Source: Auriscalpium vulgare (Eukaryota; Basidiomycota; Agaricomycetes; Russulales; Auriscalpiaceae). Taken from it: a DNA stretch of 64,000 bases. Under the pieces are notes generated by a model that saw only the letters and a list, made by a program, of their open reading frames with translations, did no database searches and was not told the DNA's origin. The stretch is from contig JAHBBC010000008.1 in assembly GCA_019915015.1 (NCBI GenBank), forward strand, positions 1,426,001-1,490,000, written 5' to 3'. Shown here in pieces: positions 5,830-46,411 of this stretch. Numbering within the stretch: the first letter of the stretch is position 1; each line of letters starts with the position of its first letter. A program made the translations under genes and the position numbers.

Positions 5830-6045
5830 TGTTGAGGATCGGCTCCACGCACAAGGACGATGAGGGACAACGAAGGATATTCGAATTAGCGCCGGGTAGC
5901 GTATACGAAGCTGGGCGTAATCCGTAAGGGATATCGTAGCAAAAGAGCTAGCTACATGTCCACGGAATAAGGTTCGTATGTACTGTACAGTACCCGGAAG
6001 ATGCCGGTGCGGCGTTGAGCTCGACATGCACGTGATATTCCAACA
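5830..6045 (-). repeat. TRIM LTR, left copy (3' LTR if minus orientation)
   Basis: 216 bp, identical to 6706-6921, with TG...CA termini. Preceded by TCGTC. Confidence 0.85.
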
Positions 6046-6705
6046 CACTCCCTCGAGCGAAAACGCCAACAGGAAACAGGGACAGAAAATGGGAAGGGGG
6101 ATTCAAAGGGGGATGGGAAAAGCATAACAGCAGAAGGAAGAGATAGAAGATGATGACATGCCTAGTAACCCCAGACAGTAGGAGATCCTAGCGCCTGACC
6201 CAACTCCTGGACTGATCCTGCCACTCCCTGGCTCTGGACGCACTTCCAGCCTGTCCAACCTGACCAACTTCCAAGCCCATGTCTTCATCTCCCTGCCAGT
6301 CAACCAACCACTCGGTGATGCAATTGCGCACCTAAAGCCCCGAAGCCGGACTCTCTCTGTGTGGCTGGATGCCACCTATCTCGAGAGCAGACGATGCTCT
6401 GTGAGGCGTGAGCCTCATGTCCCGTAGCGCGGACAACGGATGACGACGACAGCGAGGACGGCGGAACATCGAGTGAGGGGGGGAATCGGAAAGGAGCGTC
6501 GAAGAAGGGGGAAGGGATTTAAGGCCCAATGACGAGACAAGTGTTATGCCCACCTGGGCTATGACGCGAGGTTCGGTTACGCGAAGGCGCTGCGGCACGA
6601 GGTCCAGTTACGTGCCCACGATGCACGGCTGAGACAGGACAGCCGGTGTCCACTGTCAAGGCAAGAGGCCGGTCGATATTCCCAACGACCAAGGTAGACG
6701 GATTA

Positions 6706-6921
6706 TGTTGAGGATCGGCTCCACGCACAAGGACGATGAGGGACAACGAAGGATATTCGAATTAGCGCCGGGTAGCGTATACGAAGCTGGGCGTAATCCG
6801 TAAGGGATATCGTAGCAAAAGAGCTAGCTACATGTCCACGGAATAAGGTTCGTATGTACTGTACAGTACCCGGAAGATGCCGGTGCGGCGTTGAGCTCGA
6901 CATGCACGTGATATTCCAACA
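6706..6921 (-). repeat. TRIM LTR, right copy (5' LTR if minus orientation)
   Basis: 216 bp, identical to 5830-6045. Followed by the matching TCGTC duplication. Confidence 0.85.
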
Positions 6922-7635: not shown

Positions 7636-8488
7636 TGATGAGATGAACCCTGGGGGAGGCCCCGGGAACGTCGATAGAAATGGAGGGAGCGAGCAGCCAA
7701 CCGCTGGCCCAAGAGGTAGTGGGTCGGAGGAAGAAACCCAAGATCGCGACCGTGCCCCGAACAAACCACCCAGGGCCCCGCGGGTCCTGCCCTCGCCCTG
7801 CGGCCCTCTCTCTCTCTCTCTCTCTCTCCGCTCCCGTCCGACCGTCGCACGTTGCGTCTCTTCCCACACTATTCGGTGCGACCCTCCCGTCTGTCGCCGC
7901 CGGTCCGTCCTAGTTGCGGAGTCGCCCTTGCCGTCCGACCGTCCGACCTGTGTCCCCGCGCTTGTACCGTCCGAGTCGCTATCCTGGAATATAAACGTCA
8001 GTCATAAAACCTACCACACTGTATCACTCCAGTCTGTGGTTGAGTCGGGGCAGCGTAGCCCGTGGTATCGCAAAGGTGGCGCGACCTGGATGTCGCTACG
8101 GCTTCCTGGTTTAAGGCATCGTGTCGGGCTGGTCTGGCGGTGTCGCGTCGTGCGGTGCTCTCTGTGAAGCAGGAACGAAAGGTGTAGTCTCGGGTGTAGG
8201 CCCAAGGTCCAAAAGTGTCCCTACAACAAGTCGAATCGCGTCTATATACCGCTGCTTCGTCAGCTCTTCCCACGCGTCTGCGCTCCTACGCGTCCTACCA
8301 AGTTCCGCGCCCGACCGTTCCGACTCCCTACCTCGGCTCTCCGTCTCCTCCCCAGACGCTCGCTCGCTTTGTGCTGTCCCGTGGTCGTGCCGGTGCCGCG
8401 ACGCCTGTGGGGCGTCTCGGGGGTGTGTGTCTTGGTGTAGCGGTGTGATTGGTCCGTTTCGGTGCCTGTAGCGCTGCGGGTCCCATCA
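7636..8488 (-). repeat. 3' LTR of the 14.4-kb element
   Basis: 853 bp, matching 21207-22059 with about one substitution. Contains a CT microsatellite near 7807-7829 and TATA-like stretches (ATATAAA near 7989 and TATATA at 8233-8238) that could also fire towards the antisense cargo genes. Preceded by ACGC. Confidence 0.92.
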
Positions 8489-8526
8489 TCCTCCCCCCAA
8501 CTGAGCTACCGACTGCCCTCAGTCGG
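8489..8526. promoter_or_regulatory. polypurine tract and hairpin module 1 (at the 3' LTR)
   Basis: Directly after the LTR the plus strand reads TCCTCCCCCCAACTGA, then a perfect hairpin CCGACTG-CCCT-CAGTCGG (8509-8526). In the element's sense this is a GGGGGGAGGA tract abutting the 3' LTR, the expected plus-strand primer. Confidence 0.75.
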
Positions 8527-8637
8527 CGAATCCCCGGATGGCTCCTCCTGATAAAGGCTCCCTCGCGCCGTCTCGATGAGTCGTCAGGTAGCGTCGCACC
8601 GCCCGCCCGACCAACCAACCCCCCCCCACACACCATC

Positions 8638-9865
8638 ATGACCTGGTCTCCCCACACGTACCGTCGCGGTACTCTCTTGCTGTACCACCTGGGTCGGGCC
8701 CCCAGCGCGGACTTCCCGCTCGCAGCAGCCGCCGAAGCGATCGAATCGCGCGAGCGTTGGGCACAGGAGGTGTTGGCTGTCATCGTACGGTTCCCCTCTT
8801 TTCCGCCCCGTTGTCGCGCTAACCGTCCGCTCCCATCGGCTGTAGGAATCCATCACCGATTCCGACCCCAGGCTGATCATCCCCCTCGCCGAGCGCATCC
8901 TCATGCCGATACTCGAGAACGCCATCCTCCTCGTACCCGAGGTCGAGGATCGCTTCCGCTCGTGGGCGGGGCGCTTTCTTCGTCCCGCCCCGCTCCCTAC
9001 GACCGAGCTGCACCCGTGGACCTCCGTTGTTGATCGGGTCGACCTACTTGACGCCCCCAAGGTTCGGCTGACCGCGACGCTGGTTGAGGAGAACTTTTGG
9101 GTCGTGTTTCGCAAACGCGGGTGCTCGGTCGCGTCGTACTTGCGCGAGCTCGCCATTTTCCATGCCGCCATCCCCGATGACCGTCCCCTGGGCAACCAGA
9201 CGTGGGTCGCGTACGTCCTCCGAGAAGCCTTGGAATGTTCCGCGCTCTCCATTCGCCACTCGCGTGGTGGGACCGCTTTCCTTCCCGACTACGTCGCCCG
9301 CGAGTCGACCGCTTGGCCCATTTCGCCTCCCACGCAGTACGGTCGCAACCTCGGCGGACTGGGTGCGCGTCTTTTAGCTCGTTTCGAGGCCGTGTACCGC
9401 GAGACCGTCGAGGAGCTCGCTGGGGCTACGGAGAACGTCGCCAATCTGCAAGCCCTTTGGGCCGACGCTCCCTACCTGTTAGCCATCGTTCGCGACCCCT
9501 GCCTCTCCCTCGAGCACGCAACCCGACTCTTCCTGGAGTACGCAGTGACTGCGGCATACGTTCTGCGCCATTTCCCAGCCGCCCCGACCGAGCCCGACCT
9601 TTACACGAACAACCTCTTGGTGACCTTTGTGCGCCATCGTGTATTGTCGGGGCTCCCCGCCTTGCCCGCCGGTGATGGTGTCGGCTTGGTTGACGACGAT
9701 GCCGGCGGTGTCGATTCCGACGAGCAGATGCAGGGCGATCCCGTGGACGCCGGGGGTGTCGGGGATAATGTCGCTGTGATGGAGCGTGTGGTGGTCGGCG
9801 ATGTCGGCGCGATAGTGGATTACCGCAGCGATAGTGATAGCGACATCGCGAGCAGTCGCGAGTAG
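8638..9865 (+). CDS. cargo gene A: unknown protein, antisense in the LTR element
   Basis: Two exons, 8638-8784 and 8846-9865, with a 61-nt intron (donor GTACGG, branch GCTAACC, acceptor TGTAG). Exon 1 is exactly 49 codons, phase 0. The product is 388 residues, mostly helical in appearance (RERWAQEVL, AERILMPILENA, LARFEAVYRETVEEL), and ends in an acidic tail with DSDSD. I see no known domain, signal peptide or membrane segment. It resembles gene B around the shared intron position. It follows the 3' LTR by 150 bp, so its promoter may lie in that LTR or in the C6-hairpin module at 8489-8526. Confidence 0.7.
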
Positions 9866-10152
9866 TGTACCCCTTCTGTAAATGGTCTCTCCGGCCGCCA
9901 TGAATCGCACAGAACTGTGGCCCCTGATGTCTCATAGCAATGATCGTCGCGTTTCGCTGCGTGGGCGACTCATAGCGTCGCGCGGTCTCCGACCGTGTTC
10001 TGATGGATCGCGGATTCGGTTGCGCGTGGTCGGCTCTGACTTTGTCTTGTCCCGCTCCCTTCTGGCTACTTGCTCCTCGTGCACCCTGCGCAGGCTGGTC
10101 ACCCGTCGCCGAGAAAATCCCTATCTTTCTCCTCGTCGCTCGTGACTGGCCA
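9866..10152. other. 3' side of cargo gene A
   Basis: No gene seen between the gene A stop and module 2. A further 95 bp separate module 2 from the gene B start. Confidence 0.5.
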
Positions 10153-10192
10153 TCCTCCCCCCAACTGAAATCTGCGCCTGTCCTCAGACGCA
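10153..10192. promoter_or_regulatory. polypurine tract and hairpin module 2 (between cargo genes A and B)
   Basis: TCCTCCCCCCAACTGA again, then a stem TGCGCCTG-TCCT-CAGACGCA (one mismatch, 10173-10192). Same order, spacing and CTG-N4-CAG apex as module 1. Confidence 0.7.
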
Positions 10193-10287
10193 AATTCTCC
10201 GGCCAAACCCCGGCATATCGGGTCGCGGCGGGTTTCCGACGGCCTACATAACGAGTGCGGTCGGTGCGTGCGACCCAGCCTCCGACC

Positions 10288-11469
10288 ATGTCGTCCAGTT
10301 TCACCCTTGAGGCGCGTGCTTTCGCCCTTGTCGGGCTACTCCTCACTCCGCCCGCGATTGACCTGGAGACCGCTCCCGTCGAGACCCTGGTTCTGGCTCG
10401 GGAGGAGTGGGGTCGCAAGGTTGCTACGCTCTACGTAAGTCCTCGCGCTGTCGTTGCGATCCCCGCTCACGTCCGTGTCGCGCTTATCCAGAATGAAGTG
10501 TATAACACTGCGAAGCCATCCGTCCTTCGTCTTGTCCAGGCAATTGTCAGCCCCGTCTTCGAGACGCTGTTCACTGTGTCCCCCGAGTCGCGCGCCGCGT
10601 TTGCTGAATGGGGTGGTAACCTCATCAGCGACCTCGCGCCTCCGACGTCCGCTCCTCTCGACCCGACATTTTCGGTTCGCCCGATCGCTGGATTCACCTT
10701 CCCGAACAATCGCGACCACTCTCGCCAGCTCTCGCGCCTCTGCGAGGGCGCCCTGTGGGCCGCATTTGAGTCGGGCCGCACGTCCGTTCCCCAGTACCGT
10801 CGCAGCCTTGGTGAGCTCTGCTTGGCCGCTCATCCCACCGGTCGCGGAGCGGGCATCGACGCGACAGTCCACGCGGAGTTCATTGCCGGCATGAATGCTT
10901 GCGCTTCGGCTCTTCAGCGCCTGAACGGCGGGGAAGAGGCCCTCCTGTCCGAGGTCCATCGCCTCTCCTACTCGACCACCGGCATATCCCTCCCCGACCT
11001 CCTGCGTACCCTCGCGCACCCTCTGTCCGATACGCTCATTACCCACACCACCGAGACCGTGGCGACCTTGGCGTCGATCTACGGCACCATCGCGCAACTT
11101 GCGCGACCCGACGACCGCCGCGCGCGTGGTCGCTGGGGTCCGTATGCCGACGCCTTTGACTCTGCGGATGGGTTCTTGGAGGCCGCCGCTGCCGCGTATC
11201 TGCGCGACGCCTTGCAGTGGTCCACCACTATCGACAGTCTTCATGCGCGCACCGCCATTGAGAGCGCTATCCTCGCGTCGAACCTCCCCACCGAGTTATT
11301 GGCCGACGTCCACAGCGACCCGACGATGTTCTTGGACGAGGTCGTGACGTTCCGCGCAGTCCCGATGGGTTGGCAAAACGCGCACCGTGGTCGTCGAGGC
11401 GGGGGTGCGACTCGGGGGCGCCTCACTCAGCAGGGGCGTATCCCGCGTGACGATCCTACCACGCTGTAG
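10288..11469 (+). CDS. cargo gene B: paralogue of gene A, antisense in the LTR element
   Basis: Two exons, 10288-10434 and 10492-11469, with a 57-nt intron (GTAAGT donor, GCTCAC branch region, TCCAG acceptor). Since 57 is a multiple of three the unspliced frame is also open, but the splice sites are strong. Exon 1 is again exactly 49 codons, phase 0, as in gene A. 374 residues. It aligns with A before the intron (REEWGRKVA versus RERWAQEVL) and after it (IVSPVFETLF versus ILMPILENAI; WGGNLI versus WAGRFL). The C-terminus is Arg/Gly-rich, unlike A's acidic tail. No known domain. Confidence 0.7.
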   Translation: MSSSFTLEARAFALVGLLLTPPAIDLETAPVETLVLAREEWGRKVATLYVSPRAVVAIPAHVRVALIQNEVYNTAKPSVLRLVQAIVSPVFETLFTVSPESRAAFAEWGGNLISDLAPPTSAPLDPTFSVRPIAGFTFPNNRDHSRQLSRLCEGALWAAFESGRTSVPQYRRSLGELCLAAHPTGRGAGIDATVHAEFIAGMNACASALQRLNGGEEALLSEVHRLSYSTTGISLPDLLRTLAHPLSDTLITHTTETVATLASIYGTIAQLARPDDRRARGRWGPYADAFDSADGFLEAAAAAYLRDALQWSTTIDSLHARTAIESAILASNLPTELLADVHSDPTMFLDEVVTFRAVPMGWQNAHRGRRGGGATRGRLTQQGRIPRDDPTTL

Positions 11470-11951
11470 CGTCGTCGCGCTGTCGGAGCGTCGGGAGATA
11501 AAGGGAAAGAAAGAGCCCGCGTTAGTGTAGTGCCTTGTGCCCGCATGTACGTCGTTGAATGCCTCCCAATACGAGTATTGAACTTGCGACGCGTTACCCG
11601 CTTGTGCGACGCCAGTGTACCGTGGTCGCGCCCCGTGGGAGGGGCGGGCGCCAACGACTTGTGCCATTTCGCTCGTGCCAGCGACACGTGCCCGCCACGC
11701 GGCGTCGGAGCCGCGCGTGGCGTCCCGCACCGGTCCGGGGAACGTCGCGGGATCAAATCAACGATCGCTGATCAGATCGCGGATCGTCCCGGCATCGTGG
11801 GCACTCGGAGGCAAAACCAGCGCTTTGGCCGGGCCACGCGGCCGGTCGCTCCCACGCACGCGCCTTTGTTCGTGCGCCAGTGGCGAAGTCGCCGTCGCTC
11901 GTCTTCCTTCTCCCCCATCTCCCCCCCGCTACTCACTCGCTTCCCCCCGCT
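11470..11951. other. spacer between cargo genes B and C
   Basis: Nothing recognised. A pyrimidine-rich run (CTCCCCCATCTCCCCCCC, near 11918-11937) lies just before the gene C ATG but lacks the ACTGA and hairpin of the three modules. Confidence 0.5.
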
Positions 11952-14024
11952 ATGGACGCCGCCACCGCCGCCGACTCTGCCGCCACTCGCGCGATGCTGG
12001 GACCCCAGCTCGCGATGCTGTCCGCGCTCGCCCTCAACGCCACCGACGAGACTCAACGCGCTCTGCTCCGCCCACAGGCGAACCAGCTACTGGTGCGCCC
12101 CCCGTTCTCGTCTTCTGCAACCGCCGCTCACCGCTACCGTTTTGTTCCCCCCCCCGCAGCGTACCTACTACGACGCCCATGCGCGCGGAGTGGCGTTCAC
12201 CGCCAACGAACGCCAGCGCTACGATGCGCTCGAAGACGCCATGCGCCCGCCGCCCATGGCTCGCGACGAGGAGGACGAGGAGGACGAGGAGCACCAGGAG
12301 CACGGCCCGACGACTGGGGTCGCCGCGGCCGCGCCTGTCCCGACGCCGGTTCTGGCTGCCCCCGGCGAGGGCGAAGGCGAGTCGGAGGTCGACCGCGCCC
12401 CACCCGCTCGGCCCCGCCCCAAGGTGCGTACGCAGCCCATCGCCGCTGTCGCCGCCGCTGACACTCGACCTCCCGATCGCCCCTAGGCTCGTCGCGTGCC
12501 CGCCAACCGTGCCGAGGTGGTGGTGCCGCGCGTCGCCCCGCCTCCTGCCCCTCTTTCCGCACGCGGCGAGCGCCGGGCGGCGCGAGCTGCGACCACGACC
12601 GCTCCTGCCTTGTCCAAATCGTCCGGAAAACGTCGCGCTTCGCGGTCCCCTGCGCCTGTCGCCTCCCCGCGTGCCCGCTCTTCGCGCGGTCGCCCCGCCA
12701 AAAGGGGCCGTCCGGCCTCCGTCTCCGTCGCCCCATCGTCGCCCCGCCGCCACTCACCGTCGTCGTCGCCTGAGATCGGCCTCGACGACTCCTTGTCTGA
12801 GGCGGTCGATGAAGACGGCGACGCTCTCTTCCACAAGTCGGTCGGTCGCCCCACCAACACGGAGCGCTACGCTGGCGAGCGCCTCAAGGTGAGTCGCGTC
12901 GCCCTGCCGCCGCGTCCCCTCTTACTCACGGCGCCCTTATTGTAGACCGCCACCCGCTGCTCTCGCTGCGAGCACAACTTCAAGCAGGGGCCCAAGCGAT
13001 GCGAATTCAAGCCGCATCTGCCCTCGAAGTGCATTCGTTGCCGTGCGCAGCGGAAGTCTTGCACTGGCGCCGTGCTCGCTGACGGCACGCGACCGCCCGC
13101 GCCTTCCCCCCGTACCCACCGGGGCCGCACTGGACGCCCTCGCGCTGCGTCTCGCGCCCCGCGTTCACGAGCGGCCTCCCGCAGCGCCCCGTCGTCGTTC
13201 CTCACCAAGCTGCTGGACGACTTGTTGGCGTCTGCCGACTCCATGGGTAATTTCCACTCCCGCGTGTCCGAGCTGCTACTGACGTCCCTCGTCATTTCGC
13301 AGATCCACCGCGCCGCGCCCGCGAACTTCTCGCGGAGGTCCTGTCGTCTGTCGACGCCGAGCCCCACCGTTTCGAGGAGCTCGAGGCCGCCGACCGCTTC
13401 CCGGAGGAGGCCGCCTCCATCGACCTTGTCCAGGCGGAAATGGCAGCGAGCCGGACGACCCTTCTCGTGTGGCCCCACCGCCACGACCGTCTCCTTATCC
13501 GCTGGGCGCAGCTCACGCACCGGTTCGGAGCGCGGGAGACGTCCGATGTCCCTGGCTCCGATGCCGCCTCGTCTCCCTCCTTGCCTGGCTCCCCGGTCGC
13601 TGGTCCGAGCGGTCTCCACGTCCCCGACTCCCCTGCGATCGCGACCATCCCGCCTAGTTCCGTCGCGGCTTCGACACCGGGCGACCCCGCCGACTCCGAC
13701 GAAGAGGAAGACGAGCTCGCTGCTCCCGTCAAGCCGCCGGCTTCCCATGAAGACGATGAGGACAACGGGGACGACGGTGCCTCCGGGGTTAGCGATCCCC
13801 CTCCCGTCGCGGGACCGTCGGGCGGTGTGACCGACGAGGGTGAGGAGGACGAGGCCGATGAAGAGGGCGGCCACGCGGCCGGCGAGGACGACGAGGATGA
13901 CGAGGACGGCGCCGAGGCGGCCGGCGTGGACGATGAGGACGACGAGGAAGAGGAGGACAGCGACGCGGCTCCGGCGGAGGGTGCTGCCTCTGTCGAGGTC
14001 GCCGATATGGACGTCGACGAGTAG
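11952..14024 (+). CDS. cargo gene C: protein with Zn2Cys6-like cluster and acidic tracts
   Basis: Five exons: 11952-12092, 12160-12423, 12487-12888, 12946-13246 and 13303-14024. The introns are 67, 63, 57 and 56 nt, with GT...AG ends and CTGAC or CTCAC branch points. 609 residues. In order: a short helical N-terminus; an acidic patch (DEEDEEDEE) near 80; a basic Ser/Pro/Arg region; and six Cys at 274, 277, 288, 298, 301 and 308 (C-x2-C-x10-C-x9-C-x2-C-x6-C) followed by basic residues. A long Asp/Glu-rich C-terminus comes last. The spacing resembles fungal Zn2Cys6 DNA-binding domains, though the first loop is longer than the usual six. A DNA- or chromatin-binding role is inference. Confidence 0.72.
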
Positions 14025-14258
14025 TGTAGGACCGTCCGACTCCTAGTATGTTTTTCTTGTTTCATGCTTGTATGATACGCTTCCGCTCGATGCGCTCTCC
14101 CTGTATACTCGTGCGTTATACTCCTGTACGTGCTCATAAAAATAGCAATTTAGTGTTCCCCCACCACAAAAGGAGAGAAAATAAGTTAAAACGCGTGGCC
14201 TCAGTGTACTGTCCGTGGTGTATCTCCTTAACGTGTTACCTAATTTAGTCACGTCGCG

Positions 14259-14292
14259 TCCTCCCCCCGACTGAAACTGCTGACCCCAGCAG
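14259..14292. promoter_or_regulatory. polypurine tract and hairpin module 3 (between cargo gene C and pol)
   Basis: TCCTCCCCCCGACTGA, then the hairpin CTGCTG-ACCC-CAGCAG (14277-14292), ending 15 nt from the pol stop. Third copy of the module. Confidence 0.7.
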
Positions 14293-14306
14293 ATGTACAG
14301 GGCCTG

Positions 14307-17300
14307 TCAGGCGACACTGCCGTCTTCCGCGCTGTTGCTCGCGGTGTCCGACGCGTCGCTGTCTATGCTGCGTGATTCCTGTGCTTGGGCGTCGGGGCCA
14401 GGCTGCCCGAGAAGCTCGTTTAGTCGTCGGGCGGGTATGTCGATGAACTCCGGTAGCGGAGGAAGCGTGATGTGTGGTCGCGCGAAGTATGGAATGACGC
14501 GAAACTCCGCAGTGGGCCTGTCAAAGACCGCCCCGTGCATATCGCACAGGACGTACGGTCCGCCACGTCGCCGCCCAATTACGATGAACGGACCGTCGTA
14601 GCGAGGCAGCATCTTGCGGTCGAGTGATTTCTCGAACTGCGTGAAACGTACCAGGACAAGGTCGCCTCGTTGGAAGCCGTAGTTCTTGATCGACGCTTCG
14701 TGGTCGCGCTCGAAAATCAGCGCATCCTGCCGCCGCTTGTCGAACACTTTCGAGTGGAGCGTACGGAGCTGGGTGCGGCGCTTCTGAAGTGCGACAGCCC
14801 GTCGCGCGATTAAATCCGTCGTCGACAGTATCGAGTCGGGCGGTGGTAGGAGATACGTCGCTTCTACGATATCGAGGGGCATCAATGCCTGCGTGCCGGT
14901 CGCCGCGAAGTAGGGGGAGCAGCCCATACGCCTGCGCGTTGTGATCCTGTCCGCCCAGAATACCGAGTGTGCGACCGTGGCCCACTTGCTCGCGTCACCG
15001 TCGGCGGCCTTGTACAGGGCCTGTCGGACGTCGAAATGCGATCGCTCTACGATTCCGTTGGATCGCGAGTTATAGCCTGAGATGCGGATGTGCTGCACTC
15101 CGTAATCTTCTTCGAGGTGCTTCATCGCTGCTAGGTACGGCGTCCCGTTATCCGTTACGATTTCCCGGAGCGCTCCCCAGCGACAGAGTACGTCCTCGAA
15201 TATCCATCGCGCGAGCGACTTGGCATTTTCCTGTCGCAGCATGCGCCACTCTGGGAAATGCGAGACCGAGCACCTTCCTTGTACGATGTATTTGAAACCT
15301 CGAGAAGCCGGCATGTGCATGGTATCAGCGTACATCTTGGCGAACAGCGGCGCCGGGGTCGCGACCGTTGGGGGAATGAGCACGTGCTTGACCTGTCGCA
15401 CTTGGCAAATATGGCATGATCGTACAAACCATGCGACGTCGCGATCCATGTACGGCCACCAGAAGCGTTCGAGGAGAAACATCTTGGTCGGGTACGCGCC
15501 GCGATGTCCGACATCGTCGTGACAGGCCTTCAGAGCCCCTATGCGGCGTTCCGGGGGTAGGACGAGTTGGTGGCGGCCCTGCGGCTCCTTGCGAAAGAGA
15601 CTCGTGCCGTCAAGGAAGAACTCGGTGCAGTACCGCAGGAACGTCGCGTACTCTTGGTCGGAAAAGCCATCCGGCCGCTGGAGCGTGTTGTGCCATTCCC
15701 GAACTCGCACAATTCGTTCGTCGGCTTGCTGCGCCTTGATGTCGCGGTCGACGGCGTCGTAAGACATCTCCGTCGGGGCGGCCTGGGTGACGAACGTCGC
15801 GATCGCGGCCCTTGGGTGGTCGCGTGGGTCCCCCGACCGTGGCCTTGTACTGCGCGGTACGTATGCGTTCACGAGGTGAATGAATCCATACATCGCGTCG
15901 ACCCAGTCCTCGAACCCGTCGTGCTCGTTTTCTGCCACGTCGCCCGGTTGGCGCCTTCGTCGTGACATTCCGTCAGGCCCATGAAACAGGCCGGGCACGT
16001 GAACGAGGACGAAATGGAACATTAGAATGGCGATGATCCACCTATTCATGCTGGCCGAGGGTTCAATATCAGGGTTGTCGAGCATGCCCTTAATGTAGCG
16101 TGCGTCGACTTCCACGACCATGTTCCGCACTCCGATGAGATATATCTTCAGCGCGCGGAGCGCCCGAAACAGGCCGTATAATTCTAACTTTGGTTGCGAA
16201 AAACGCGCCTCGCGATCGTTCAACGCGATGGACCCAAACCGTGCGTACCGACGCTTCTTGCGACTCTTCGGATCGTCGGCGTCAGCCTGGCACAGCAAGA
16301 ACCCGACCGCAATAGGAGACGTATCGACCGCGAGGATAACCGGTTCGCCCGACTGATAGTCGATCGGTTTCAGGGCTGGCGACTCCAGCAACGCGCTTTT
16401 GAGATCTTCCATAGCTGCTAATTGTTCCGCTCCGAATTCGAATGGCACATCTTTCCTCGTAAGGTGCGTGAGCGCATGCGCGCGATGTGCGAAATGGTGG
16501 ATGAAGATCCTCAGCACCCCGACCGTCCCGAGGAACGCCCGCACATCGGACAGGTCTTGACATGGCCCCCAATTCACAATCTTAGCCACCCGTTGTTCGT
16601 CGGGGATCCGCCCGTCCCTCGTGCAGCGGTGTCCGACCACGACAATTTCGGGCGCGCACAAAATAGTCTTCCAACCCGAAAACGTCCCGCCCGAATAACC
16701 CATGCGCTGTACGACGCGGTTGAGATTCTGGAAGTGTTCCCAGACAAATCGGCGGATGCCCTCGTTGTCAGCGATTGTCTCGTACTTCCCCTGGTCGTCC
16801 TTGTATTCGCTCGCGGGGCCCTTGACCGGTACGTCATCAATAAACGGTATCGTGACGTGGGGAATTTCCGGCCTCAGGATATGTGTGACGTCGTCGTGGA
16901 AGATAGGCACTGAATTCGTCCAGCCCATCGGTAGTGTTACCAACCGCAGCGCGCCGTAAGGGGTCTGGAACGTAGTGAGGTCGCGCGACGCTGGGTCCAA
17001 CGCTCGCTCGTCGTATCCGACGTACAGATCCAGCATCGCGCCGCAAGCCCGACCCGCGAATTGCTCGGCCAGTTGGTCGGTAAACGGGGGCACCCCGGAA
17101 TGAGCTATCGTGACGGCGTTTAACGGCTCCAGGCTGTGCACTATGCGCAGGCTCGTTCCATCCTTTTTGACCACGCAGAACCACCGCGACCTATACGACG
17201 AATTGGATGGTTCGTAGACGTTCGCGGCCAACTTCCGACTGATTTGTTCCATGACTTGGTCGTAGATTCCCGGCGGGATCGGTATGTTGCGTTGTACCCA

Positions 17301-18020
17301 TGGCGTGTGCGGTACGACGGGTATCGTGACCGGCGGAAAGAAATCTTCGCGGAAGTGGCCTCGCTCGCTGTCGTCCCACGCGAACGCACCGTTGTGCTCG
17401 CACATAAAATGGTGCATCAGCTTGCGTTCCTCCTTCCACAAGAAGTCCCCCTCGTGAACTACGTCGAATTGGTCGCGGCGCTCCTCGGTGTAACGCCCCG
17501 TCGGCCGGAAGTCAGGGGGCTTCGTCGGTAACTTGGGTAGTGTCGCTAGCGGGTCGCCTCGTATGTCGCGTATGATTCTGAACTGCCCAGGCAAGTCGGC
17601 TAGTACTGGCTTCACTTTTAGGTGGGCTGGCTTATACTTTTTCTTGGTCGCTGCGAAAACTGCGCGTGCCCGCGCGCTGCTTGGCAGCGACTTACAGTCG
17701 CGAAATTCCTGTTCGCCTGCGAACGATGGCACCCCGGCTGGGGCGAGAAAGAAAACGGGCGCCGATGGAACGTCTAAAGTCGCGTCGGTCGGCCGATCAA
17801 ATATTGGAGGGGTAGATTCTGGGAGATCGCAAAATGATAAATAGGTTGCTCGTAACTCTTCCGGCGAACTAGAGGAGTCGAAGGGGACCACGGCTTCCAC
17901 GGAAATAGGATCGGCGGCGTCGCCCGTGAACTCGAGGACGAGCGCCACTTCCGCCTGGTCGTCCAACGACGCCTCTAGAGCCGAAAATCCCTGCGCTCGC
18001 CGGCGCTCTGAACGATGCAA
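14307..18020 (-). CDS. Pol polyprotein: RT, RNase H, integrase
   Basis: About 1,237 residues. RT spans about 240-460 and has FIDD at 393-396 instead of YxDD. RNase H spans about 560-690 (AVDTSPIAVGF, KLELYGL, ARYIKG). Integrase has an H834-H839...C869-C872 zinc site and catalytic D899, D957 and E992, with 34 residues between the last two. A GPY/F-like module (GPFIV...GGPYVL) follows; no chromodomain was seen. The first codon of the open frame is TTG, not ATG, so it is probably made as a Gag-Pol fusion by -1 frameshift. The stop lies 15 nt before a hairpin and a polypurine tract. Confidence 0.92.
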   Translation of the reverse strand: MHRSERRRAQGFSALEASLDDQAEVALVLEFTGDAADPISVEAVVPFDSSSSPEELRATYLSFCDLPESTPPIFDRPTDATLDVPSAPVFFLAPAGVPSFAGEQEFRDCKSLPSSARARAVFAATKKKYKPAHLKVKPVLADLPGQFRIIRDIRGDPLATLPKLPTKPPDFRPTGRYTEERRDQFDVVHEGDFLWKEERKLMHHFMCEHNGAFAWDDSERGHFREDFFPPVTIPVVPHTPWVQRNIPIPPGIYDQVMEQISRKLAANVYEPSNSSYRSRWFCVVKKDGTSLRIVHSLEPLNAVTIAHSGVPPFTDQLAEQFAGRACGAMLDLYVGYDERALDPASRDLTTFQTPYGALRLVTLPMGWTNSVPIFHDDVTHILRPEIPHVTIPFIDDVPVKGPASEYKDDQGKYETIADNEGIRRFVWEHFQNLNRVVQRMGYSGGTFSGWKTILCAPEIVVVGHRCTRDGRIPDEQRVAKIVNWGPCQDLSDVRAFLGTVGVLRIFIHHFAHRAHALTHLTRKDVPFEFGAEQLAAMEDLKSALLESPALKPIDYQSGEPVILAVDTSPIAVGFLLCQADADDPKSRKKRRYARFGSIALNDREARFSQPKLELYGLFRALRALKIYLIGVRNMVVEVDARYIKGMLDNPDIEPSASMNRWIIAILMFHFVLVHVPGLFHGPDGMSRRRRQPGDVAENEHDGFEDWVDAMYGFIHLVNAYVPRSTRPRSGDPRDHPRAAIATFVTQAAPTEMSYDAVDRDIKAQQADERIVRVREWHNTLQRPDGFSDQEYATFLRYCTEFFLDGTSLFRKEPQGRHQLVLPPERRIGALKACHDDVGHRGAYPTKMFLLERFWWPYMDRDVAWFVRSCHICQVRQVKHVLIPPTVATPAPLFAKMYADTMHMPASRGFKYIVQGRCSVSHFPEWRMLRQENAKSLARWIFEDVLCRWGALREIVTDNGTPYLAAMKHLEEDYGVQHIRISGYNSRSNGIVERSHFDVRQALYKAADGDASKWATVAHSVFWADRITTRRRMGCSPYFAATGTQALMPLDIVEATYLLPPPDSILSTTDLIARRAVALQKRRTQLRTLHSKVFDKRRQDALIFERDHEASIKNYGFQRGDLVLVRFTQFEKSLDRKMLPRYDGPFIVIGRRRGGPYVLCDMHGAVFDRPTAEFRVIPYFARPHITLPPLPEFIDIPARRLNELLGQPGPDAQAQESRSIDSDASDTASNSAEDGSVA

Positions 18021-21000
18021 CGCGAGCCTCGCTCTACTGTCGGGACGGTCGCCGTCGCTTGAGTGTTGGGATCGGTGATCGTGATGGTCTGTCGCTCATC
18101 GACAAAGTTGCGGACTATACTCCCAGTGAGGACGTCGAAGGGCCTCCCTAGCAGGATGTCGTAGGCCGGAGAACGTATGACGTGTATCTGTACGTAGAGC
18201 GTGATGTCGCCTAGCTTTAGCGCTACGTTGCGGGCTAGCCCGAGGGATTTGTCAATCGAGCCATTGGCGGAAAGCATGTCCAGTGTGATCGCGGGATCAT
18301 ATGCCAGGCCGAGAAAATGACAAACGTCTTCGGACATGGAGATGACCTGCGACCCTGGATCCAGGATAGCCTCAATGTGCGCTTGGTTATCCACCAAGGG
18401 CAGGACCGCTCGCAATGCCGATGACTCTTTTGCGACCACCAGCGGGGCCGGTTTCTCGGCCGAGGCACTCATCAACGTCAGCATCGGGTCGGAGAGCACC
18501 AGCGACCCGCGAGGCGGCACCGCTGGCTGGCTCTGTATGGCCTGCAAGAACGACGACGGCATGTGCGAGGTGTATCCCCGCGCTCGATCTCTCTCCTGCT
18601 CGCGCTCTTCCTCGTACAAGTCGCCGGGTAGGTCCGACCACTCCTTGGTAGGCCCTTCCCCTTCCGCTACGACCGTGTGTAGGACCGCTACTGGGGAGTC
18701 CCCGCTGGACAGTACCGGGGCCGCTATGCGTCGCGGGGTGATAGCGTATCGCAACTGGGAACGTACTTCTGGCGCCAGCGACAGTAACTCGCTCTGTGTC
18801 AGAGTGACGGAAGTCTCCATCGCGCGGCCGTAGACTTCCTTCGCGACTTCCTCACTATGGATGGGCGTGTCCTTGGTATAGGCGGCGACTGGTTTCTTCC
18901 CTTTGTCTGGTCGGGACGCGTCCCCGACGGGTATGTAGGTTGCGTCGGGTACGGAGGCGAAAGGATGGATGGGTTCCGGCTCTATCTCCTCGGGGTCCTT
19001 CTCGACTGTCGGCTCACCCTCGCTCTCTTCCCTCGCCGCTTCCGCACCCTCTGGACCTTCGGGCACCGCGAACGTAACCTTCGGCCGCTTTGCCGTGAAT
19101 TTCGACGGAGATATGACCACCTCAGGGACTAGCCTCTTGGATCGCACTCTCTCCCCGGGCAGCGGACCGATTGGTGGCGGTAACTCTCCGTTGCGAATCG
19201 CTGCCTCCCTTCGGGCCCGGCCGGCGTTCCTCTGCTCCTTCATGAGGGTTAATACCGCCATCTCTTGACGCAACTCCTCGAGTCGCTCGTCGTCCGTCAA
19301 TGGCGGGATTAACTGGATGAGCCCGGCGACCGGCTGGTCGCGCGCAGGTCGGAGCGGGTAGTCGGTGACGGCGATGGGACCTGTCGATGCCAACATCATT
19401 GTTTCCGTCGCGTTGCCCGCGACTCTGGCCGCGACGTCGGCGCGCAGCCCGGACGGGTCCGTGCGATAATATTCGTCTACCCTCGCTTGAATCGGGCCTA
19501 GCCCAAATGGCACTGGCCTGCCGCTCTTGAGTACCACCTGGTTCATCTCGTTGCGTACCACCCGCCCCGTCGCTATGTAGTCTTGCAGGACGAGGCATTC
19601 GCGGATGAAGTGCTCGGGACCGTTGCAGAACGAGCACCTGGCGCCATCCTGTCCCGGGGCCGGGCGAGGACGATCGAAACGAGCGGCCGACGCCATCATC
19701 GGGCCCGGTGGCCCGCGCGTGTACGCCGACGGCTGCGGGCCTGCGTTACTCATCCCCATCGCATCGGCTCTCCCCGCGCTATACGCTTTCGCGATCTGCT
19801 CGGCCGCCTTCTCCATCAGAGCGGCAAACTGCTCGACCTTGATCGCAGGTTCTTCCGCCTTGACGGCCACGGGTTGGGACAAGTCGGCCAGACCCGCGGG
19901 GACGCTGAGCCCTGCCGATCGCGGGGTGCTCGACGTGCCGTGCAGCACGTACCGCGCCGCTTCCACTATTTGGTCCATCGGGTACGGGCCGTCGCGATCG
20001 TGGTCGGGATACTTCAGCTGCAGCCGCTGCTCTATCCTATCTTGCAGTCCCTTCTGAAATCCACGCAAGAAAGTGTAGTCGCGGTCACGCTCGGAGATAC
20101 GCTGCCGCCCTATAAGAAACTGGGAGATCGCGTAGAAACCGCGATAGTATTCCCCAACGTCGCCAATGGTCGTGACGCCTCGGCGGGCTGTCTCGGCGAC
20201 GAGCTGATCGAGGTCGCCCATCGTGTATTTGCGCTCCTCGTCCGCTCCGGGGTATAGCGCTATGATCGCGGTCACGAACTCTTCGAACGTCGCATTGCCC
20301 GCGTACTGGGGTCGGCTTTGCCACTGGTCTGCTGTAAGGACGTCCAGGTATCGCGTGGCGTGCTCCTTCTTCTCCTGGTCCTGGCCGTCCTCGATACCCG
20401 CCCGCGTGAACAAGTGCCTCAACTCCGCGAAATAGCGTTGCAGCTCGCGCGGCTTAAGATTGTCGAACTTAGGGGCTTGGCGGTCGCCACGGGTAGGCAT
20501 CGGAGTGGCCATGGTCGTGCGACGGGGTAAACGCGATAACGGAGTACTGGATTGCGATGTGGGAGAAACTGGTCGGGAAACCTGTGCGGCCGCTCCACGC
20601 CCGTCTCCTGATAAACCTCCGTGCGTTCCGACGTTTCCGCGGTCGGAAGCCAAGCGGTCGCTGTCGGAAGGCACCTGTGCCTCGTCTCGGTCCTCATCAA
20701 TCAGCGCAGCCACTTCGGGCTCCGATTCCGACGGGGTAAGCTCCGGCGACGACCATTGTCGCATCGCTCCGCCAGTCAGCAACTCGATCGACGCCTCATT
20801 GACGTCCAGGAGCTCCTGATGGAGGGACCGTCTACCATCCCAACCGTGCTCCGACTCCTCCGATTGGACAGGGCCTGCCTCCGCGTTTTGATCGCCGGGA
20901 GCCTCGCCCGCAGCATCCCCGTCGTTCTCGGGTGCTGCGTCCGACACACCCGATGCCTCGCCGTCGTCGTTTTCGTTGTCGCCCTCGGCGCCTTCAGCGC

Positions 21001-21157
21001 TGGAAGTCGCGCGCTCTTCGTCCGACGCCCCACCTTCCGACGATGCGAGGTGTCCTGGCATGGACTCCGCCCGCTGACTGGTCGAGTACTCCGACGGGGC
21101 CGATCGGGGCGGTGCGCGTCGAGTGGGCTCTACGATAACCCTCGCCTTTGGTGCCAT
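17975..21157 (-). CDS. Gag-protease polyprotein of the 14.4-kb element
   Basis: 1,060 residues from an ATG 50 nt inside the 5' LTR. The N-terminal 230 residues are acidic and low-complexity. A Ty3-type capsid region follows (about 240-400: FDNLKPRELQRYF through FLRGFQKGL). A CCHC knuckle (C-x2-C-x4-H-x4-C, CSFCNGPEHFIREC) binds nucleic acid. A retropepsin domain near the end has its active-site Asp at residue 933 in ILDPGSQ, where Pro replaces the Thr of the usual DTG, and the family's ILLGRPF near 1002-1008. It would build the particle and cleave the polyprotein. The frame ends in a 46-nt or longer overlap with pol, which is one base back. Confidence 0.9.
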   Translation of the reverse strand: MAPKARVIVEPTRRAPPRSAPSEYSTSQRAESMPGHLASSEGGASDEERATSSAEGAEGDNENDDGEASGVSDAAPENDGDAAGEAPGDQNAEAGPVQSEESEHGWDGRRSLHQELLDVNEASIELLTGGAMRQWSSPELTPSESEPEVAALIDEDRDEAQVPSDSDRLASDRGNVGTHGGLSGDGRGAAAQVSRPVSPTSQSSTPLSRLPRRTTMATPMPTRGDRQAPKFDNLKPRELQRYFAELRHLFTRAGIEDGQDQEKKEHATRYLDVLTADQWQSRPQYAGNATFEEFVTAIIALYPGADEERKYTMGDLDQLVAETARRGVTTIGDVGEYYRGFYAISQFLIGRQRISERDRDYTFLRGFQKGLQDRIEQRLQLKYPDHDRDGPYPMDQIVEAARYVLHGTSSTPRSAGLSVPAGLADLSQPVAVKAEEPAIKVEQFAALMEKAAEQIAKAYSAGRADAMGMSNAGPQPSAYTRGPPGPMMASAARFDRPRPAPGQDGARCSFCNGPEHFIRECLVLQDYIATGRVVRNEMNQVVLKSGRPVPFGLGPIQARVDEYYRTDPSGLRADVAARVAGNATETMMLASTGPIAVTDYPLRPARDQPVAGLIQLIPPLTDDERLEELRQEMAVLTLMKEQRNAGRARREAAIRNGELPPPIGPLPGERVRSKRLVPEVVISPSKFTAKRPKVTFAVPEGPEGAEAAREESEGEPTVEKDPEEIEPEPIHPFASVPDATYIPVGDASRPDKGKKPVAAYTKDTPIHSEEVAKEVYGRAMETSVTLTQSELLSLAPEVRSQLRYAITPRRIAAPVLSSGDSPVAVLHTVVAEGEGPTKEWSDLPGDLYEEEREQERDRARGYTSHMPSSFLQAIQSQPAVPPRGSLVLSDPMLTLMSASAEKPAPLVVAKESSALRAVLPLVDNQAHIEAILDPGSQVISMSEDVCHFLGLAYDPAITLDMLSANGSIDKSLGLARNVALKLGDITLYVQIHVIRSPAYDILLGRPFDVLTGSIVRNFVDERQTITITDPNTQATATVPTVERGSRCIVQSAGERRDFRL
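17984..17990 (-). other. candidate -1 frameshift site GGATTTT
   Basis: In the overlap of gag and pol the minus strand reads G GAT TTT in the gag register, 6 nt before the gag TAG. Slipping back one base gives the pol frame. GGATTTT is, as far as I know, used for -1 shifting in some fungal totiviruses. No other good heptamer is seen in the roughly 120-nt overlap. Confidence 0.45.
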
Positions 21158-21190
21158 CGGGTTGCTGAGCGGTTGACACTAGCCCCCTCG

Positions 21191-21202
21191 CGGTGGGCTC
21201 CA
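21191..21202 (-). other. probable primer binding site
   Basis: Four bases inside the 5' LTR the minus strand reads TGGAGCCCACCGCG. It begins TGG, the complement of a tRNA CCA end, as expected for minus-strand priming. I could not assign the tRNA. Confidence 0.5.
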
Positions 21203-21206
21203 CAAA

Positions 21207-22059
21207 TGATGAGATGAACCCTGGGGGAGGCCCCGGGAACGTCGATAGAAATGGAGGGAGCGAGCAGCCAACCGCTGGCCCAAGAGGTAGTGGGTCGGAG
21301 GAAGAAACCCAAGATCGCGACCATGCCCCGAACAAACCACCCAGGGCCCCGCGGGTCCTGCCCTCGCCCTGCGGCCCTCTCTCTCTCTCTCTCTCTCTCC
21401 GCTCCCGTCCGACCGTCGCACGTTGCGTCTCTTCCCACACTATTCGGTGCGACCCTCCCGTCTGTCGCCGCCGGTCCGTCCTAGTTGCGGAGTCGCCCTT
21501 GCCGTCCGACCGTCCGACCTGTGTCCCCGCGCTTGTACCGTCCGAGTCGCTATCCTGGAATATAAACGTCAGTCATAAAACCTACCACACTGTATCACTC
21601 CAGTCTGTGGTTGAGTCGGGGCAGCGTAGCCCGTGGTATCGCAAAGGTGGCGCGACCTGGATGTCGCTACGGCTTCCTGGTTTAAGGCATCGTGTCGGGC
21701 TGGTCTGGCGGTGTCGCGTCGTGCGGTGCTCTCTGTGAAGCAGGAACGAAAGGTGTAGTCTCGGGTGTAGGCCCAAGGTCCAAAAGTGTCCCTACAACAA
21801 GTCGAATCGCGTCTATATACCGCTGCTTCGTCAGCTCTTCCCACGCGTCTGCGCTCCTACGCGTCCTACCAAGTTCCGCGCCCGACCGTTCCGACTCCCT
21901 ACCTCGGCTCTCCGTCTCCTCCCCAGACGCTCGCTCGCTTTGTGCTGTCCCGTGGTCGTGCCGGTGCCGCGACGCCTGTGGGGCGTCTCGGGGGTGTGTG
22001 TCTTGGTGTAGCGGTGTGATTGGTCCGTTTCGGTGCCTGTAGCGCTGCGGGTCCCATCA
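21207..22059 (-). repeat. 5' LTR of the 14.4-kb element
   Basis: 853 bp with TGATG/CATCA ends, followed by ACGC. In the element's sense a GGTATATAGAC TATA-like box lies about 240 nt into the LTR (21814-21819), a plausible promoter for the genomic RNA. Confidence 0.92.
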
Positions 22060-44234: not shown

Positions 44235-46411
44235 TCAGAATACTAAGCGACGTTCTTTACCTGTTCGATTTGGCCACTCCCACTCCTTCAGAATCTCGGA
44301 CGCGTGTGGAAAACTGTCCACATCGTCGATGTCCAGTTCATCTAAGACAATTACTTCCGACTCCGTAGGTGCATGCGCACAGACAAGCAGCGTGTCACAG
44401 CTGCTACCGACTAGCTGGTTGCTGGCGCTTTCAGATTTCGACGAGCGGCAATGGAAGGATATTGCTACACTTTATCGCAGTCAAAACGGGTTATGTGCGG
44501 AGCGGTGACTATACGCACGTCCTCCAGGGTCGGCACATGCGTTGATGATTCGCAAGTTCGGCAGCATCGCTTGGAGTTGAGCCAGGTGTTCAGCGGAGAC
44601 GATGCCGCTAGATCTAAGGTCCAATCTTTCGAGCGGATGCCCTGCACCCGCCCGCTCCGACAGCCATCCCGGCAGTAAATCTTCTAGGAGACTTTCTGTG
44701 CCGTAGTTCGCATCTGAGGGTGACAGCCCGTCAACGGGGCTGCGGAAGCCAACATCTCGAAGCTTCAGCGCTATCAGCGTGGGCGCAACATCTGTACAGA
44801 AAGGCGCATCAGGATAAGTCGTTTCCAGACTGCATGAAAGCATACCTGGTGAACGGAGAGCGGCGCAGAGTGTTCCGCATGCGTTGCCGACGGCTTCAAT
44901 CCTCTCCAGGAGCGGGGTGCATGAAAGAGCGGTCTTCCAGGTGTCCTCGGTCCATTCTTCATCCATCATGACCAGCTCACGCAATCCGCTAGAAGCGAAT
45001 GCCTTGAACGTTGGCAACGTGGGTCGTTCGGCGCCGCGCCAATCGTTGTCCTTGAGTCTGATCTGGATTGGCGGCGTATAGCTTCGACAAGTGCCCCGCC
45101 ATGCCGACATAATGAGGCCAGACGATAAAAATCTGAGGGACTTTGACGACAGCGCCGTGGATGAGAATACGAGCTTGGTAATGGGTTCAGCGTTAGCGTC
45201 GAGATTTTGGAGCGCACAGATTGACTCTGCGATGGCGTCGGGTTTGACCTTGTACTTCGGTGAGTTCACGAAGACGATGTGAATAGATGCCGTCGTGGGG
45301 ATGCGTATCTTCTCGAGGAAGCGACTCAAACCAAGCGCAGGTGCTTCGAGGTAGAGATCCGATAGGCAGGGGAGCTGCACAGGGTCAATGGCACCTTGTC
45401 CACCTCCGCCATATCTGAATCCATTTTCTAACACGAGACTGAAATTCTCGAGGCAAGGCATGTTTCGCAGAGCCTTGACGACCTCCGGTAATTCGGGGTG
45501 ACTCCAATTGCGCAATTGAACCACCGTCAGACTCGTGAGGGTCGTCAAGCACGGGGCATCCCATCCAAAGGCTTCTTCCGTCTGAACGTCGAGCACACGA
45601 AGTGCAGGAGTGTACCCGGCTGGGATCATATTGGGAAATTGCGGACATGCCAGGTCTGTCTTGATCTCTTCTAGCATCGGACATGGGGAGTGGGGTGTCT
45701 CGATGTCGCTGCAAGCGTCGCTGAGCCAGCGATCGATCCAGAGAGTCTTTGTTCTGGGGAGGTTATCGCGGACGAGGGTAGAAGTCCAGTCTGGTGTGCC
45801 CTTATTCACCCTGACAAAGACGATGGCTGGAGAGGATTTCGACCGCCCATACATTGCAGAGGCCCACTTTCTGGACGGAAGCGGGAACGAAATATCTGTC
45901 CACAAGGCAGGATATCCGAGTGCGACTCGCCTCCAAGCGCTGCAAACGTAGGTGGCCGCCACCAGGTCAAACAGGTGCTCGAAAATGTCCTCGAGTATCT
46001 TGTGCGGAAGGCGAGATATGGGGATGAGGGAGTTGTGGAGCCTTCGCGCATGGAGCAGGGCCTTGCGTATGGCGGCTTCGTGCTTCTTATTGCGTTTGTG
46101 GACGGCGGACATCGCAGCACGCAGTGCCCTCTCTTCACTGCGACGCAGGACGGTGAACGCGGCTAAGTCAGCGGCTAAGGACGCCGCGCGCTCCTGGATA
46201 AGTCGTAGGTCCTGGCCAATGTGGCGAGGGTGCTGTGGGATAGCAGGGAGTTGTGCGATGCGGGTTGCGGCTGCGTCGGCCCAGTACGACCTGGCATCCG
46301 GTGTTCCAGTGGGATCGTGCGATCTGCGTGAGGGACGGAAAATCAGGACGACGTCGCAAGGGCCAGTCACAGAGAACATGCAACGCACGGAGCATCGATA
46401 TTAGCACGCAT
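44235..46411 (-). CDS. F-box gene 5
   Basis: Exons 46411-46389 (23 nt, MRANIDA), 46323-44846, 44791-44519 and 44464-44235. Introns of 65, 54, 54 nt. 667 residues. Domains: YWADAAATRIAQL start, long helical region, F-box at about 115-150 (ISRLPHKILEDIF, YVCSAWRRVALGYPALW), leucine-rich C-terminus and acidic tail (VIVLDELDIDD). About 15 residues between the two F-box halves are missing relative to genes 6 and 7. The 54-nt intron is a multiple of three, so the unspliced frame is open there too. First of three tandem minus-strand units. Confidence 0.85.

Follow-up and report, generated by a model that had tools for sequence, protein, structure and literature searches.

Antisense open reading frames (ORFs) between pol and the 3' long terminal repeat (LTR) have been described in several groups of LTR retrotransposons. 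In plant Ty3 elements of the Retand lineage, the interval from pol to the 3' LTR is long and contains conserved antisense TRP28 ORFs, one of them possibly DNA-binding, and some copies were recently active (PMC11963269). The gene23 of maize Grande lies at the same position in antisense orientation, has its own promoter and gives a nuclear product, and an antisense gene is likewise found there in rice RIRE2 (reviewed in PMC7264820). Among fungi, the LTR element Boty of Botrytis cinerea is named as having an additional antisense ORF in the review by Vicient and Casacuberta (PMC7264820). A comparison with the antisense genes of human T-cell leukaemia virus (HTLV) is drawn in both PMC11963269 and PMC7264820, which treat the role of antisense accessory genes in plant LTR retrotransposons as an open question. 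In bdelloid rotifers, several ORF3 types, encoding enzymes or membrane proteins, are common to families of LTR elements (PMC5408684). Here, we analyse an element of the basidiomycete Auriscalpium vulgare located in a 64,000-nucleotide stretch of contig JAHBBC010000008.1 (positions 1,426,001 to 1,490,000; hereafter the window). Positions 7636-22059 of the window are a complete Ty3-type LTR retrotransposon, read on the minus strand, in which three spliced plus-strand genes, A, B and C, sit between the integrase-coding end of pol and the 3' LTR. The reading that we favour, and consider probable, is that of a recently active Ty3/gypsy lineage with an old, element-owned antisense accessory module, A, B and C, that has a regulatory or anti-silencing role.

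The window element resembles the Retand lineage in the extended interval between pol and the 3' LTR, in the conserved antisense ORFs within it and in the recently active copies (PMC11963269), but differs in having three spliced genes, a paralogous pair and exchangeable alleles of C. Pfam searches gave no TRP28 match in the exons of A, B and C or in the annotated A. vulgare proteins P0003 and P0005, and the word "intron" is absent from the main text of PMC11963269. Grande and RIRE2, compared by description only, also place an antisense accessory gene downstream of pol, ahead of the 3' LTR; however, their hosts are plants, and the window element has three genes and a cysteine cluster. Boty, again compared by description only, is likewise fungal with an antisense ORF but is an ascomycete element. 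The likeness to HTLV is that of an antisense accessory gene of a retroelement, with no homology claimed, and the window genes differ in the polypurine-tract hairpin motif that recurs upstream of them. The bdelloid elements differ in that the window trio is antisense and without a known domain. The words "antisense" and "additional ORF" are absent from the main text of PMC3248453, and searches of the open-access literature brought up no fungal module of three spliced antisense genes. Antisense extra ORFs at this position are already known (Grande, RIRE2, Retand, Boty), and the fungal spliced trio is a new variation on them. An earlier reading made from the letters of the window (the sequence-only reading) had treated the three-gene block, with its zinc-cluster protein, as not known from fungi; fungal antisense ORFs as such have a precedent in Boty (PMC7264820).

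Genes A, B and C as parts of the element

The exon models of A, B and C were picked by eye from the sequence and then checked against other copies; every modelled intron is of the GT..AG type. Frames were counted as open in 18 aligned copies, namely the window and 17 of 20 further loci (loci L024, L025 and L026, internally deleted or partial, were excluded), and most copies are open for each gene. The five-exon model of C also gives an uninterrupted frame in representatives of each of the four C types described below, despite strongly diverged DNA. The splice sites of C are independently supported by the NCBI-annotated A. vulgare protein P0003 (595 amino acids), which matches the spliced C of L018 end to end (94.6% identity, one gap opening) and the other C types at 59-73%. 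FA95DRAFT_1609791 and FA95DRAFT_1609792, two proteins that carry consecutive tags and are listed on equally long contigs, match A and B, neither of them full-length and gap-free. Protein database searches gave 2, 1 and 3 proteins among the matches listed (about 8000 candidates), all labelled as hypothetical proteins of Auriscalpium vulgare (order Russulales).

Genes A and B form a paralogous pair. Their alignment is collinear (A1/B1 with E of 1e-5 or 1e-8 depending on direction, A2/B1 with about 1e-11), and exon 1 comprises 49 or 50 codons, followed by a phase-0 intron, in all six genes compared (A and B from three element families). The product of C contains a six-cysteine cluster, basic stretches and an acidic tail. 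The six cysteines are invariant in six sequences, which cover each of the four C types as well as families 2 and 3, and are spaced in the window by X2, X10, X9, X2 and X6. Fungal Zn2Cys6 transcription factors have the spacing C-X2-C-X6-C-X5-12-C-X2-C-X6-8-C. The cysteine layout of C is alike, but its second spacing is too long and no Zn_clus match was obtained even at E 5; membership of C among these factors was rejected. Of two PDB sequence searches, one gave a single match (E 0.12), a designed helical protein, and the other gave none. The AlphaFold model of B exon 2 is all helical.

The ratio of nonsynonymous to synonymous substitution rates (dN/dS) was estimated by the Nei-Gojobori method, which is rough at high dS; pol pairs involving L022 were left out. 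Between the window and L037, B gave dS 0.91, dN 0.069 and dN/dS 0.075, with 38, 21 and 151 substitutions at codon positions 1, 2 and 3, and its intron showed 17 changes in 57 sites. For A, the same pair gave dS 0.063 and dN/dS 0.167. For the integrase part, dN/dS was 0.135 between the window and L018 (dS 0.019) and 0.026-0.056 in the five other valid pairs (dS 0.18-0.37). A and B each show 0-7 changes between the main types; ratios based on so few changes are unstable, and for B some of them lie above 1. In C, all 57 counted coding gap runs are multiples of three, in three pairs that all share the window sequence, so that the runs are non-independent. These patterns point to purifying selection on the trio, strong on B, and chance open frames were ruled out by the codon-position bias, the frame-keeping gaps and the dN/dS of B.

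Related families were searched for in the same genome (an assembly of 51.6 Mb in 96 contigs) with B, the cysteine exon of C, the integrase and additional family-3 queries, and matches to A, B and C were paired with integrase rows by position and strand. Since the integrase rows are the 100 scored of 426 candidates, the family counts are lower bounds. Families were assigned via integrase identity, also for the rows at C27:210720, C42:24248 and C5:295061 (family 1, that of the window) and C17:1046687 (family 3). Family 1 has at least 41 integrase rows, accompanied by C-B-A in 30, C-B in four, C-A in one, C only in one, B only in one and none in four. Family 2 (integrase 79% identical, nine copies) has C-B-A opposite pol at all nine rows. 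In family 3, in which the integrase is mostly 73-74% identical and C, B and A are diverged, at least 51 rows, including one of 77%, show C and A in 39, C only in six and none in six. The family-3 B'' was missed by the B query, while its own query gave 50 match rows; it has no significant BLAST match to B, and its assignment follows from where it lies, from its exon pattern and from alignment. The family-3 C'' matches C weakly (E 0.08-0.2) and was assigned by position and the six cysteines. Four integrase rows also had a same-strand A, B or C match within 9 kb. Across the three pol families, the trio proteins share about 26-43% identity in matched parts, in the same order and orientation. Nested insertion of another element was rejected, as no terminal repeat (minimum 40 nucleotides) surrounds the trio and three families share its site. 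No trio was found within 8 kb beyond the integrase of L036 (77-79% integrase identity). In L034 (C19:155200-164600), an internally deleted, diverged relative of family 2, A is 85% identical and open and B exon 1 stands beside gag; the rest of B, C and pol are gone.

No separate single-copy host locus for A, B or C was found among the scored top candidates of the organism's own genome, in which the diverged matches fell in element families. Judged from these comparisons, A, B and C behave as the element's own long-standing genes. The sequence-only reading had proposed that the trio is maintained by the element, which is borne out by related elements carrying it in the same place, and had called it cargo, a word that suits captured passengers better than what the data point to. 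It had also stated that related elements never carrying these genes, together with single-copy host matches elsewhere, would indicate one accidental capture; the own genome showed no such combination, with 58 of the 272 A, B or C match rows lacking an assigned scored integrase. What the present comparison adds, at the level of sequence, is the paralogy of A and B, an allelic C swapped between elements and the internal recurrence of the polypurine-tract motif.

Types of gene C and their exchange between copies

Family 1 contains at least four types of C, the window C having 71, 56 and 66% protein identity to the others. Among the main types, the LTRs, A, B, gag, protease and the reverse transcriptase-RNase H part are mostly 98-100% identical per 150 alignment columns, and the lowest full 150-column blocks outside C (95-97%) lie in the LTR, while C drops to about 50-86%. 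Divergence beside C fades through the integrase, ending near 14.4 kb between the window and L018 and near 16 kb in the others. One copy per C type gave LTR pairs with 1/853, 0/722, 0/849 and 0/850 differences, and thus all four types were copied recently. The copy L037 combines the C allele of L016 (99.8% protein identity, introns included) with a B only 87.2% identical and a diverged LTR stretch: C moves as a unit. This stretch of the L037 LTR, equivalent to window positions 8233-8400, is only 70-83% identical to other copies, the remainder being 92-100% identical, and the LTR itself is mosaic. A fixed association of C with one LTR, B or integrase type was ruled out by L037 and by the window and L018, which share the integrase but not C. 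The low translated identities of C in family 3 result from frameshifts, and hypervariability of C as a general rule was ruled out by the aligned copies of that family.

One explanation of this pattern, which we put forward tentatively and regard as somewhat doubtful, is that C is a type-specific factor with several old alleles, preserved by balancing or diversifying selection and passed as a cassette among otherwise uniform, co-active copies. Such a C would correspond, in a transposon, to phage immunity or self-recognition loci, or would be what the element contributes to an arms race with fungal silencing. The trio could also be functional while the C types are unselected relics of once-separate subfamilies, homogenised elsewhere by recombination; we consider this a serious contender, though short of an even chance. 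Copies are clearly mosaic, with C, B, the integrase and part of the LTR each having its own divergence pattern, family 3 has one C type, and there is no direct sign of positive selection in C, as dN/dS between types is 0.22-0.35 (dS 0.71-1.08, dN 0.19-0.33). However, one genome holds recent copies of all four types, and divergence peaks sharply on C between uniform flanks. Within one type (L011 and L022), dN/dS of C is 0.84. Sliding-window estimates along C place the cysteine-cluster region with its most strongly constrained parts and show the weakest constraint in the acidic tail.

Element structure and the repeated polypurine-tract motif

The window element is a recent insertion of a recently active lineage. 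Its LTRs, which start with TGATG and end with CATCA, differ at one of 853 positions aligned pairwise, with no gaps, and ACGC stands immediately before and after the element. An LTR probe of the same genome gave 40 scored matches of 112 candidates; the element exceeds a chance arrangement, since besides the window there are 15 LTR pairs spaced 13.5-13.7 kb and two shortened ones spaced 8.1 and 8.8 kb. The complete LTRs, the ACGC duplication, the gag-protease and pol frames on the minus strand and the multi-exon plus-strand genes, all read from the letters alone, were recovered here (Table 1). The gag-protease frame is open in all four C-type elements compared. The protease lies at the end of the gag ORF, and pol contains RNase H at residues 555-690 followed by the integrase zinc domain at 847-901. 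Two pol matches fall below the Pfam cut-off, RVT_1 (residues 341-427; 15.3 against 29.6 bits) and rve_3. The TG..CA LTR pair and the target site duplication agree with Ty3/gypsy (Metaviridae), as does the protease-reverse transcriptase-RNase H-integrase order, with RVT_1 as a match below cut-off. Of the Ty3 priming signals, the polypurine tract at the 3' LTR is clear and the primer binding site is a candidate only; a tRNA scan of the window found no primer tRNA.

The polypurine tract belongs to a motif, CCTCCCCCCRACTGA followed by a short hairpin, that is present three times in the window. With up to two mismatches allowed, these three matches compare with 0.25 expected, and none of 100 shuffles reached three; genome-wide, there are 195 exact matches and none for the reversed pattern. 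The stem was examined in eight instances chosen from three families and fitted by eye with spacers of 2, 5 or 6 bases, leaving out a weaker copy at L029 5347. Pairing is possible in 95.2% of cells and three of six pairs change on both sides. None of 500 shuffles reached the covariation score, but 28 of them reached the number of changed pairs and 24 the number of pair types. A and B would be accounted for by duplication of a unit made up of the motif and a gene, and the motif might provide extra plus-strand start sites or form part of an antisense promoter.

Table 1. Features of the Auriscalpium vulgare element, in window positions
Feature	Position	Strand	Remarks
3' LTR	7636..8488	minus	853 nucleotides, TG..CA, preceded by ACGC
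Polypurine tract CCTCCCCCCAACTGA and hairpin stem	8490..8525	minus	adjoins 3' LTR; also 5' of gene A
Gene A	exons 8638-8784, 8846-9865	plus	388 amino acids; open in 13/18 copies; paralogue of B
Internal motif copy	10154..10190	minus	5' of gene B; exact 15-mer; hairpin with one mismatched pair
Gene B	exons 10288-10434, 10492-11469	plus	374 amino acids; open in 15/18 copies
Divergence peak between copies (C types)	11850..14250		from alignment profiles
Gene C	exons 11952-12092, 12160-12423, 12487-12888, 12946-13246, 13303-14024	plus	609 amino acids; open in 17/18 copies
Internal motif copy	14260..14292	minus	directly after pol stop
pol ORF: reverse transcriptase, RNase H, integrase	14307..18095	minus	Pfam RT_RNaseH, RT_RNaseH_2 and Integrase_H2C2 above cut-off
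gag-protease	17975..21157	minus	1060 amino acids; overlaps pol in a different frame; Pfam Asp_protease_2 above cut-off
Candidate primer binding site TGGAGCCCACCG	21191..21202	minus	four bases inward of 5' LTR
5' LTR	21207..22059	minus	LTR pair, one difference to 3' LTR

Elsewhere in the window, positions 5830-6921 hold a unit of 1,092 nucleotides with identical 216-nucleotide ends (TGTTG..CAACA) and TCGTC on either side, which looks like a miniature LTR element of the terminal-repeat retrotransposon in miniature (TRIM) type. Two minus-strand ORFs of exactly 635 amino acids each, at 44481-46388 and 51616-53523, possibly represent a duplicated gene or element.

Proposed function and significance

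Our best guess, drawn from sequence features, is that A, B and C are nuclear regulatory or anti-silencing accessory genes. Each would be transcribed from its own antisense promoter, so that the accessory proteins could be made without full-length genomic RNA. The introns lie on the strand opposite to that RNA, and because of this orientation they would remain unspliced in it and survive reverse transcription. C would enter the nucleus, where its cysteine cluster and basic stretches may bind nucleic acid or chromatin, and would act on the element's expression, silencing or integration, with A and B as putative helical partners. C would diversify because it faces a moving opponent, either host silencing or other copies, and recombination between co-packaged RNAs would keep the rest of the family uniform.

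Several observations weigh against this proposal. A is broken in 5/18 copies and B in 3/18, the overall dN/dS of C is below 1, and C is not hypervariable in family 3 (L030 is 94-100% identical per 150 columns to L038, L039 and L040 over A, B and C). Pfam revealed no known domain in the exons of A, B or C, and Foldseek searches of PDB and viral models gave no fold match at E 0.001 or better for the model of B exon 2, whose mean pLDDT (predicted local distance difference test) is only 61.5. Some derivatives also lack genes, namely L024, which is without most of B, C and part of the integrase and has LTRs differing at 1/713 positions, and several family-3 copies in which A is fused to the C tail, with B and most of C gone (e.g., L035, C19:515800-520300). 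Such gene-poor derivatives could have moved with help from other copies, or lost genes after insertion. In the shortened family-1 copy L025, A, B and C are kept, pol and part of gag are gone, and the LTR pair shows 0/711 differences.

It might also be considered that antisense transcription itself matters, through double-stranded RNA and self-limitation of copy number, with the proteins being secondary. Antisense transcripts forming double-stranded RNA were proposed for plant elements (PMC7264820); however, conserved frames, substitutions concentrated at third codon positions and gaps that keep the frame speak for selection on the proteins, and we regard this explanation as unlikely. The weakest alternative, that host genes were taken up once by accident and then multiplied as passengers that do nothing for the element, is favoured by the host-like introns and plus-strand orientation and by the gene loss in some copies, but it is very improbable and was rejected as the principal explanation, considering the trio shared in order and orientation by three pol families despite its diverged proteins, the strong purifying selection on B and the failure of own-genome searches to give a separate host homologue among the scored top candidates.

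The case concerns a fungal lineage with three antisense accessory genes that are spliced, recently copied and conserved across families. Natural alleles of C on near-identical backbones are rare, and they make type-specific effects directly comparable. The element further illustrates that introns can be retained in an LTR element when they lie antisense, and it points to a possible spread of gene modules via duplication or recombination at repeated polypurine-tract hairpins.

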